Of a stretch of DNA of 64,000 bases, positions 36,088 through 40,333 are shown in pieces. The DNA lies in assembly GCA_013203465.1 (NCBI GenBank), contig JABMNR010000149.1, positions 1 to 64,000 on the forward strand, given 5' to 3'. Origin of the DNA: Alphaproteobacteria bacterium (GTDB lineage Bacteria; Pseudomonadota; Alphaproteobacteria; Thalassobaculales; Thalassobaculaceae). A program made the translations under genes and the position numbers. Numbering within the stretch: position 1 is the first letter of the stretch; every line of letters starts with the position of its first letter. Under the pieces are notes generated by a model that was given only the letters and a program-made list of their open reading frames with translations, searched no databases and had not been told where the DNA came from.

Positions 36088-36572
36088 ATGTCCGTCGCCG
36101 TCACCGAACTCGATACCGCCTCCGCGACCACCCCCGTCGATACCCCGCAACCGATCTGGGTCGAGGCCGTGCCGCTCGACACGCTGGAAGCCGACGGTCG
36201 CGCTTTGGTCAAGCGCGCCGGAAAGCAGATCGCCTTGTTCGCCACGCGCGGCGGCGTCCGCGCCATCGCCAACCGGTGTCCGCACGAGGGCTATCCACTG
36301 TCCGAAGGCACCTTGGCGGAAGGGATCGTGGGTCAACCGGCCTGCACGCTGACCTGCAACTGGCACAATTGGAAATTCGACCTCGACAGCGGCGAGGTGG
36401 TGGGTGGCGGTGACGCGGTACGCATCTACCCGGTCGAGATTCGGGGCGGCATGGTCTGGGTCGACGTGGTCGACCCGCCGGCAAGGGCGCGGATCGACAA
36501 GGCGTTGGCCGGCCTGAAATCGAGCTTCCGGCGCTACGAATACGACCGCATGGCCCGCGATCTCGCCCGGAT
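36088..36572 (+). pseudogene. Rieske-domain protein, 5' part, disrupted by an IS21-family element
   Basis: The first 161 codons remain. They encode a Rieske [2Fe-2S] domain: RCPHEGYPLSEG (CxH) and CTLTCNWHNWKF (CxxH) hold the four cluster ligands. The element inserts after DLARI. In its absence the frame continues at 39175 into the C-terminal part, giving a protein of 547 aa. The truncated frame now runs to a stop at 36690 inside the IS and would yield a 200 aa product with an intact Rieske domain. Rieske proteins of this layout have an unknown redox role. Confidence 0.93.
36566..36572 (+). repeat. 7-bp target site duplication, left copy
   Basis: CCCGGAT directly abuts the left tip of the IS21-family element and is repeated exactly at 39168-39174 beyond the right tip. 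A perfect match suggests a recent insertion. Confidence 0.92.
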
Positions 36573-36700
36573 TGCGCAATCCGATGAAAACGGCCAGCGA
36601 TTCCGACGGAAAGCGGCCACCCATTCCGATCCAAAGCGGCCACTTTTTCAGCGGTCTGAATTGGCGGGCGTGATCGACGCCGTTGGGTGATCGGTTGATG

Positions 36701-37474
36701 TCATTTTCCTTGTGCCTGGTCAATGGTGGCGGGGTGGTTTTTGCCGGCCTTGATCTTTCGCATGGAGGGTCCGTTGAGTTCGAGCCTGTGGGCGTTGTGG
36801 ACGATGCGGTCGAGGATGGCGTCGGCGAAGGTGGGTTCGCCGATGACCTCGTGCCACTTGGCGAGCGGCAGTTGGCTGGTGATCAGGGTGGCGGCGTTTT
36901 GGTATCGCTCCTCGACGATTTCCATGAGGTCGCGGCGCTGCTCGGCGTTGAGGCGTTCGGGTCCCCAGTCGTCGAGGATGAGGAGGTTTGCCTTGGTGAG
37001 GGCGCGGAACAGGCGGGGATAGCGTCCGTCGGCGCGGCCGAGCTCGAGTTCGGCGAACATCCTGGGGAGGCGTTTGTAGAGCACCGAGAAGTCGTCGCGG
37101 CAGGCTTTCTGGCCGAGCGCGCAGGCGAGCCATGATTTACCGACGCCGCAGGGACCGATGATGATGAGGTTCTGCTTGCGGGTGATCCACTGGCCCCTGG
37201 CGAGTTGCTGGACGAGGGCTTTGTCGAGGCGCCTGGGGGTGCGGTAATCGATGTCCTCGATCGCGGCATCGGCGTGGCGCAGGCGGGCGTTGCGGAGCCT
37301 GTAGGTGAGGCGCCGGTCGTCGCGCTCGGCCGCCTCGCGGTCGAGCAGCAGGGCGAGCCATTGGGCATGGTCCAATTCGTCGGCTTGGGGGTTGTCGCCG
37401 AGCTCGGCGAAGGCTCTGGCCATGCCGAGCAGTTTAAGCAGCTTGAGTTGGTCGAGTGTGGGATGGGAAAGCAT
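36701..37474 (-). CDS. istB: IS21-family helper ATPase IstB
   Basis: 257 aa AAA+ ATPase that loads target DNA and activates IstA. Walker A is IIIGPCGVGKSWLA (about 107-120), Walker B LLILDDWGP, and sensor region ATLITSQLPLAKWHEVIG. The N-terminal helical IstB_N part (LSHPTLDQLKLLKLLGMARAF) precedes it. The gene lies 9 nt downstream of istA, as usual in this family, and has no inactivating lesion. Confidence 0.96.
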   Translation of the reverse strand: MLSHPTLDQLKLLKLLGMARAFAELGDNPQADELDHAQWLALLLDREAAERDDRRLTYRLRNARLRHADAAIEDIDYRTPRRLDKALVQQLARGQWITRKQNLIIIGPCGVGKSWLACALGQKACRDDFSVLYKRLPRMFAELELGRADGRYPRLFRALTKANLLILDDWGPERLNAEQRRDLMEIVEERYQNAATLITSQLPLAKWHEVIGEPTFADAILDRIVHNAHRLELNGPSMRKIKAGKNHPATIDQAQGK

Positions 37475-37483
37475 GGTGTCTCC

Positions 37484-39019
37484 TCAATGGAAGTATCTGG
37501 AGCCACGAATATTGGGGTGATCGATCGCCGGCCCGTCCGTGGCCTGTCGAGGTTTGCGGCGATCGAGATTGTTCTTGAGGATCGAGTTGAGCGAGGAATA
37601 AGAGGTGGCGCCGATCTCCAAGGCCCTCTCGCAGGCGGCCTCGAGGCGCGGTGCTCCATGGGTCTTGGCCAGGCGCAAGATGCCGATACAAGAGCGAAAG
37701 CCTTGTTCGGGATGAGGCCGGCTCTTGAGGATGACCCCGACCAGGGCCGCCGTGTTGGGACCCGTGGCGCCGGCCTGGTTGGTAATGCGTTCATGGGTCC
37801 AGCCGGCATGGCGGCGGTGCGATGAAGGCATGTGCTCGGGCGTCGTGGTGTGGCGCCGATTGCCCGACGCGCGCATGTGGAGCGCGACCCTTTTGCCCTT
37901 GTGGAAGACCTCGACGCTGCGATCGGTGATGCGCGCCCAGAGCTTTTGCTTGGCCAGCGCGTGGGGCACCGAGTAATAGTGCTTGGCGACCTCGACGTGG
38001 TAGTCGAGGCCGGCGCGGCGCTGTTTCCATTCGGCGTATTCGAAGGCCACGGCGGGCAGCGGCTTGAGGGCGGGCCGGTCGATCTGCTCGAACAGTTGGC
38101 GGCGAGAAGCGCCCAGATGGCGGGTGACCCGGCTGTTCAGATCCTCCAGCAGTTCGGCGATGGCCTGGTTCAACTCGGCCAACGAGAAGAAGCGGCGGTT
38201 GCGCAAACGGGCCAGGATCCAGCGCTCGACGACCTGGACGGCGACCTCCACCTTGGCCTTGTCGCGCGGCTTTCGCGGCCGCGCCGGCACGATGGCGGTG
38301 CCGTAGTGGGCCGCCATGTCGGCATAGGTCCGGTTGATCTCGGGATCGTAAAGGCAGGCCCTGACGACGCCGGACTTGAGGTTATCCGGTACCACCTGAG
38401 CCGGCACGCCGCCGAAATAGGCAAAGGCGCGGGTATGGGCGCCGATCCAGTCGGGCAGGCTCTGGGTCCAGGTCGCCTCGGCGTAGCTCATGCTCGACGC
38501 CCCCAGGGCGGCGACGAAGACCTGGGCCTGGCGGATCTCGCCGGTCAGGGGATCGATCACCTCGGCCGTGGTGCCGGCGTAATCGACGAATAGCTTCTCG
38601 CCGGCAACATGGGCCTGGCGCATGGTGGGATTGAGCTTGCCCTTCCAGGCCCGGTAGAGGTCGCAGAAGCGGCTGTAGCCGTAGCCCTCGGGATGGACCG
38701 CGCGGTACTCCTCCCACAAGAGCGCGAGCGTCACGCCGGATCTCTTGAGTTCCAGGTGCAGGACCGGCCAGTCAGGCGCCGGCCGGCGGTCCCGCGAGTT
38801 CGATACCGCTGGTGGGAAAAGCCGCCGTTCCAGATCCTCGTCGCTCAGGCCCATCGGCAGGGGCCAGCTCAGACCGGCCCGGCTCGCGCGCTTGATGGTA
38901 TCGCCGACCGCCGTGCGGCCGAGGTCCAGGCTGACGGCAATTCGCCGCCTGGACAGCTTGCCGGCATGAAGCCGTAAAACGTCTCGTATCTTGCGCATGG
39001 GCAATCGCTCTCTGGGCAT
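37484..39019 (-). CDS. istA: IS21-family transposase IstA
   Basis: 511 aa DDE transposase. An N-terminal helix-turn-helix ([20 protein letters not shown]) binds the terminal repeats. The catalytic triad is visible in [13 protein letters not shown] (Asp), [12 protein letters not shown] (Asp) and [14 protein letters not shown] (Glu). The C-terminal Mu-like beta-barrel and helical tail contact IstB. The usual start is at [12 protein letters not shown] (39019), about 150 nt inside the right end. Confidence 0.96.
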
Positions 39020-39167
39020 CCCCGCTCCTCTCGAAAAGGCGCGAGGCTAGCCCCCAAGGGATCACCCAACGAGGTCGATCACAGGCCCAAAAAGACTGGC
39101 CGCTTTGCGTCGGATTCGCTGGCCGCTTTAAATTGGATTCAGTGGCCGCTTTGCATCGGAATGCGCA

Positions 39168-39174
39168 CCCGGAT
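39168..39174 (+). repeat. 7-bp target site duplication, right copy
   Basis: CCCGGAT follows the right tip of the element and equals the left copy at 36566-36572. Confidence 0.92.
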
Positions 39175-40333
39175 CGAGGCGGCGGGCGGGGAATTGGCCG
39201 AGGCGGTCCGCGCCGCCATCGGTTGGACCCATGATCGGTTCGAGTGGGGCATGACCCATGCCTACGCGGCGCTCCCTGACTGGCTCAGCATCGCCGACGC
39301 GGCGACCGACCCGGACGACCGGCTTGCCGCCCATGCCGAAATTCTTGGCCACATGGTCTGGGACAGCCTTCGGGAAGACCGCTATCCCTTCGCCGACGGC
39401 CGCGAACCTTGGGATGAGGACCGTTTCGTCGCCGCCATCGAGGCCGAGGACGAGGTGACGGCGGTACGGTTGTTCCGCGGTGGTTTGAGCGCCGACGGCT
39501 TCGCCGCGGTCGATCGCGGGCTATGCCGCGCGGCGCTGGCGCATTATCAGGATTTCGGCCATTCGGTGATCTATGTCGAGAAGACCCGCGAGGCGGTCGA
39601 CCGCTTGGGCGCGGCGGTGGCGGAGCCGATCGGGCTGGCCCTGGTGCGGGCACTGATCACCGCGCGGCGCGAGGATTTGATCCCTGAATTCAAAGCCTAC
39701 CGTCCGGCACGCGAGGTCTGGACGGGACGGGGCCGCGTGGTGCCCAAACCAGCGGATTTCTGTCGTGCCTCGGTATCAAAATGCCTGGACCACGCGGTGG
39801 CGGCCAGCGGTCAACCCGACCGGCTGTACGACGCCCTGCTGGAGGCGGCCGCCTGGCAGCTGCTGCACGCGGATCCGGCATACGCCACCCGCGCCCGTCA
39901 GCCGGTTAGCCAGAATGCCGGTCGGCTCGATTTCAGCCACGCCATCACGTTCGCCAACGCCGGCCGCCGGATCGCCGGAAGGCATCCCGAGTTATGGCCC
40001 GACGTGCTGTTGCAGATCGCCTGTTTCCTGGGGCGGAATGCCGGGTTCGTCGATCCGGCCTACCCGGCCGATCGCTGGCGGATCGCCGACGAACGCGCAT
40101 TCCTCGCCGAGGCGGCGGCGGCCATCGTCGACCATGGCAACCCGGAATATATCGTCTCGGCGCATTTGCTGAAGATGACCTGCGCGGTGCGCGAGGAAGT
40201 GGCGGCGAACCCGAACGCCTGCTGGGTGCCGGCCCTGACCGCCGCCCTGAACCGGTTCCTCAACGAGCCGTTCAAGCGCAAGCTGACCCGCCGAACCGCC
40301 TATCAGGCGCGCCAGACGGTCGAAGGAGAGTAG
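39175..40333 (+). pseudogene. Rieske-domain protein, 3' part, cut off by the IS21-family element
   Basis: 386 codons plus stop, open to 40333, without own ribosome binding site. The coded part has no Rieske motif. It is a helical domain with EWGMTHAYAALPDWLSIADA, RALITARREDLIPEFKAY and FSHAITFANAGRRIAGRHPE, which I do not recognise beyond its usual link to an N-terminal Rieske domain. Many His, Asp and Glu residues suggest a possible metal site, but that is speculation. Joined to 36088-36572 it restores one 548-codon frame. Confidence 0.9.

Follow-up and report, generated by a model that had tools for sequence, protein, structure and literature searches.

Within the window (the whole 64,000-nucleotide stretch of DNA that was analysed), positions 36088 to 40333 carry two parts of a host gene, separated by an insertion sequence that encodes its two transposition proteins on the opposite strand. 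The features of this locus are as follows:

36088..36572, plus strand: host gene 5' part, 161 codons plus 2 nt, with a complete Rieske [2Fe-2S] domain (CPH...CNWH), from the ORF list
36566..36572: left copy of the target-site duplication CCCGGAT
36573..39167: IS21-family insertion sequence, 2595 bp, supported by istA/istB models, terminal repeats, and homologous copies with the same ends
36573..36650: multiple terminal repeats of the left end, with ∼TCCGAYnnAAAgCGGCCA occurring three times at a 23-bp period (motif scan)
36701..37474, minus strand: istB, helper ATPase, 257 aa (NF038214, 257.8 bits versus a cut-off of 200; Walker A motif GPCGVGKS)
37484..39019, minus strand: istA, DDE transposase, 511 aa (NF033546, 302.2 bits versus a cut-off of 160; rve and Mu-transpos_C_2 domains)
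39090..39167: multiple terminal repeats of the right end, occurring three times in inverted orientation at a 23-bp period (motif scan)
39161..39163, plus strand: element-supplied ATG that opens a 390-aa ORF (39161-40333) in the frame of the 3' host fragment
39168..39174: right copy of the target-site duplication CCCGGAT
39175..40333, plus strand: host gene 3' part, a helical domain with a predicted questin oxidase (BTG13)-like fold (orthologue alignment, AlphaFold model, and VIA-align)

The first bases of the element are TGCGCAATCCGATG, and the reverse complement of its opposite end opens with TGCGCATTCCGATG. According to the motif scan, the repeats at either end centre on AAAGCGGCCA, the termini read TGCGCA, and CA closes both 3' ends. 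The target duplication is a perfect 7 bp and abuts both element termini, an arrangement that should arise by chance with a probability of ∼4^-7 (6e-5); duplications generated by IS21 elements are short, typically 4 to 8 bp. The boundaries of the element are fixed by more than the duplication, because homologous copies in other genomes of the class share its terminal bases: in genome G221, alignment with one copy (L134) runs out at element base 1, with a single further base agreeing by chance, and alignment with a different region of that genome (L133) extends to element base 2595; in the copy from G156 (L135), it begins at element base 1. The coordinates of the element and of its duplication in the initial annotation all check out.

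The assignment to the IS21 family, with intact transposition genes, also stands, as istA and istB both exceed the curated cut-offs; the rve core of istA (PF00665) scores 33.3 bits versus a cut-off of 32.6, and istB sits immediately downstream of istA. All the IS21 hallmarks that were tested (the istA DDE core, istB, terminal repeats, and a short duplication) are present. The element resembles such members of the family as IS21, IS5376, and ISMyo2 in its consecutive istA and istB genes, inverted multiple terminal repeats, 3' CA ends, and short duplication, and its end repeats and 3' CA match the IS21 organisation, with L1/L2-R1/R2 repeats and 3' CA ends, described previously (PMC10122671). It differs from the known IS21 copies in being a new sequence. 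The nearest DNA copies, 76-83% identical, come from one genome of the class, the best-covered plasmid records show 65-71% DNA identity, and no near-identical copy was found among the plasmid records and genomes of the class. In its own assembly, the element is present in a single copy, as judged by DNA search. This genome has two further IS21 transposase genes, of which one (G000:C34:365-1234) seems complete and the other (C13:4279-4737) is broken by an internal stop; neither was matched in the DNA search with the window element.

The Rieske domain of the 5' part, which the initial annotation had described as whole, is indeed recognized by Pfam (PF00355, E 8e-15, 54.9 bits versus a cut-off of 20.3) and contains the CxH...CxxH motif. 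As it stands, the 5' frame codes for 200 aa, namely 162 native residues (codon 162 still specifies Ile) followed by 38 residues contributed by the element, with a stop at 36690. Joining 36088-36572 to 39175-40333 yields a frame of 1644 nt, 547 aa plus a stop, that reads ...RDLARIEAAGGELAE... across the junction. The two halves have similar GC contents at the three codon positions (0.67/0.51/0.84 and 0.72/0.51/0.82).

The reconstructed 547-aa frame matches uninterrupted orthologues end to end, which bears out the proposal of a single ancestral gene joined in frame from 36572 to 39175. The suggested search for homologues across the junction, which would have told against a single gene had it shown two separate genes or no spanning homologue, instead returned one open frame in 15 additional family genomes and at 80 further loci. 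Eight of the family genomes, representing the nearest genera, carry full-length orthologues with 68-73% identity, and the other seven carry single-frame orthologues with ∼48-54% identity, one of them cut by a contig edge. The 80 loci, kept from a scan of species genomes (genome_contigs), nearly all span both halves, some being truncated by contig ends. The junction residues RDLARIEAAGG are conserved and uninterrupted in orthologues L044 and L050, and the empty-site DNA CTCGCCCGGATCGAGGCGGCGGG is found exactly in L046 and L049, whose uninterrupted DNA, CTCG-CCCGGAT-CGAGGCGGCGGG, is the reconstructed empty site. The claim that the insertion is exactly reversible thus holds on paper, by the joined frame, and only there. 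By this comparison of the empty site with the orthologues, the two ORFs are one ancestral gene split by the element, and in the annotation they should become one disrupted gene. In two other genomes of the family, G030 (88% complete) and G019, nothing matched the gene's helical part, and this gene family may therefore be dispensable in some lineages.

Placement of the element in the gene by mis-joining of contigs might be suspected in a draft assembly of 238 contigs; however, a single-copy element causes no repeat mis-joins, and mis-assembly would not result in a perfect duplication, element ends placed exactly, and an empty site that keeps the reading frame, so such an artefact is extremely improbable. 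It is very likely instead that an IS21 element transposed into a single gene, leaving a 7-bp duplication and two fragments, a 5' Rieske ferredoxin and a 3' helical one. In this event, the element would have entered the ancestral gene and duplicated its target CCCGGAT, presumably by the IstA/IstB mechanism of its family, and the gene would thereby have been split into the Rieske ferredoxin and helical fragments.

The nature of the interrupted protein was approached through its orthologues. Since single-sequence AlphaFold modelling of the 3' fragment was unusable (pLDDT 38.6), a model of the aligned orthologue from Thalassobaculum fulvum (L050) was used instead; it has a pLDDT of 90.5 and consists of a Rieske domain (residues ∼20-119) followed by an all-helical domain. 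The N-terminal ∼100 aa resemble, in both sequence and fold (Z 15-17), the Rieske-type ferredoxins of ring-hydroxylating dioxygenases (2qpz, 5bok, and BphA3), but here this domain precedes a large helical one in the same polypeptide, whereas those ferredoxins are separate subunits. Residues 160-530 of the model, when compared by VIA-align, gave the questin oxidase BTG13 (7y3x) as the top match (Z 21.0, 332 residues, rmsd 4.3), with 7y3w (Z ∼21), a non-haem iron dioxygenase (8yxs, Z 20.0), and the hydroquinone dioxygenase PaD (8z4q, Z 18.3) also found; all these matches span ∼330 residues. The BTG13 match came from VIA-align, the best 50 Foldseek matches to the model being to the Rieske domain alone. 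The mononuclear iron of BTG13 is coordinated by four His residues and a modified Lys, and the host family has conserved His and Lys residues at H183, H278, H284, H411, H476, H486, and K489 (L050 numbering).

Sequence profiles do not detect this resemblance, and the likeness to BTG13 is therefore one of fold and not a family assignment. When the 3' fragment and three orthologues were scanned with Pfam up to E 5, no domain match appeared in the helical part; the 3' window fragment had no NCBIfam match; a PDB profile search matched the Rieske part only, apart from chance matches; and a search of the available literature on BTG13 and on a link between Rieske proteins and questin oxidases gave nothing relevant. 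Membership in the questin oxidase family PF14027 was not supported, with no Pfam match and insignificant hhalign scores (E 0.19-0.8) against 24 bacterial PF14027 proteins. The possibility of a classical Rieske ring-hydroxylating oxygenase was rejected as well: the alpha-subunit catalytic domain is absent from the Pfam scans, and the part concerned models as BTG13-like. The host protein thus shares with BTG13 and PaD the predicted fold of its 3' domain (Z 18-21 over ∼330 residues) and has conserved His and Lys positions as candidate iron ligands, but it differs from them in its N-terminal Rieske fusion and in resembling PF14027 proteins significantly neither by sequence nor by profile. The family, which is widespread in alphaproteobacteria, appears to be unannotated; the part lacking a Pfam match is its C-terminal ∼380 aa (39175-40333 in the window; orthologue at L050:8001-9626).

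The original protein was most likely an oxygenase whose Rieske domain would have supplied an iron site in the helical domain with electrons. The element entered within helix 145-157 (L050 numbering), where the helical domain begins, and the 3' fragment has lost helix 125-139 together with the greater part of helix 145-157. No intact paralogue or empty-site copy was found elsewhere in this assembly, where the other matches were to Rieske-domain proteins only. With this helix cut and no intact paralogue to take over, the function of the host gene is very probably missing from this genome. The suggestion that the shortened 5' frame retains partial activity is not upheld by the modelled domain layout: its product, which keeps only the electron-transfer domain, might transfer electrons at most, and partial catalytic activity appears unlikely, since the insertion lies upstream of the entire oxygenase-like domain.

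Neither half of the host gene contains a stop or a frameshift, and just 1 of 101 near-invariant columns deviates (0 of 37 in the 5' part and 1 of 64, V to I at residue 465, in the 3' part), in agreement with the earlier statement that the gene has no other lesion. In a leave-one-out comparison of such columns in 43 sequences, deviations in the interrupted gene were as few as in the intact genes. In a simulation, the chance that this undecayed state persists was 0.07 once neutral substitutions reached 1.5% and 0.03 once they reached 1.8%, which places neutral divergence since inactivation at roughly 1.5-1.8% or less, an upper bound that carries no absolute date. Since both fragments are undecayed, the data support an insertion that is recent relative to the divergence of the available relatives; the description of the event as young is accurate in this relative sense, and its age is bounded, because the comparison genomes are all outside the genus. 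As far as the assembly shows, some members of the sampled population could lack the insertion.

The same conservation of near-invariant positions in both parts would be expected if the insertion were old and both fragments had stayed expressed and useful, as a Rieske ferredoxin and a stand-alone helical domain translated from the ATG at 39161, which lies inside the right end of the element and is in frame with the 3' ORF; the Rieske domain also forms a separate module in the L050 model. However, the promoter scan found nothing sigma-70-like around position 39161 or the element's right end, the ribosome site of this ORF is weak as judged by eye, istAB are transcribed away from the 3' fragment, the helices lost to the insertion include the start of the helical domain, and all the relatives seen with the gene keep the fusion in one frame. 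An old insertion with useful fragments is accordingly quite unlikely, and a recent insertion that inactivated the gene is the preferred reading.

Far less certainty attaches to the biochemical role of the host protein than to the insertion event, and our confidence in that role is about evenly balanced. There is an even chance that the members of the host family are self-contained oxygenases that combine a Rieske domain and a BTG13-like non-haem iron domain in one protein and are distinct from the classical Rieske oxygenases. While the insertion itself represents routine genome plasticity, the more interesting part is the host family with its Rieske and BTG13-like domains, which, if this proposal is true, would constitute a Rieske-coupled oxygenase architecture apart from the classical ones, widespread and unannotated in alphaproteobacteria.
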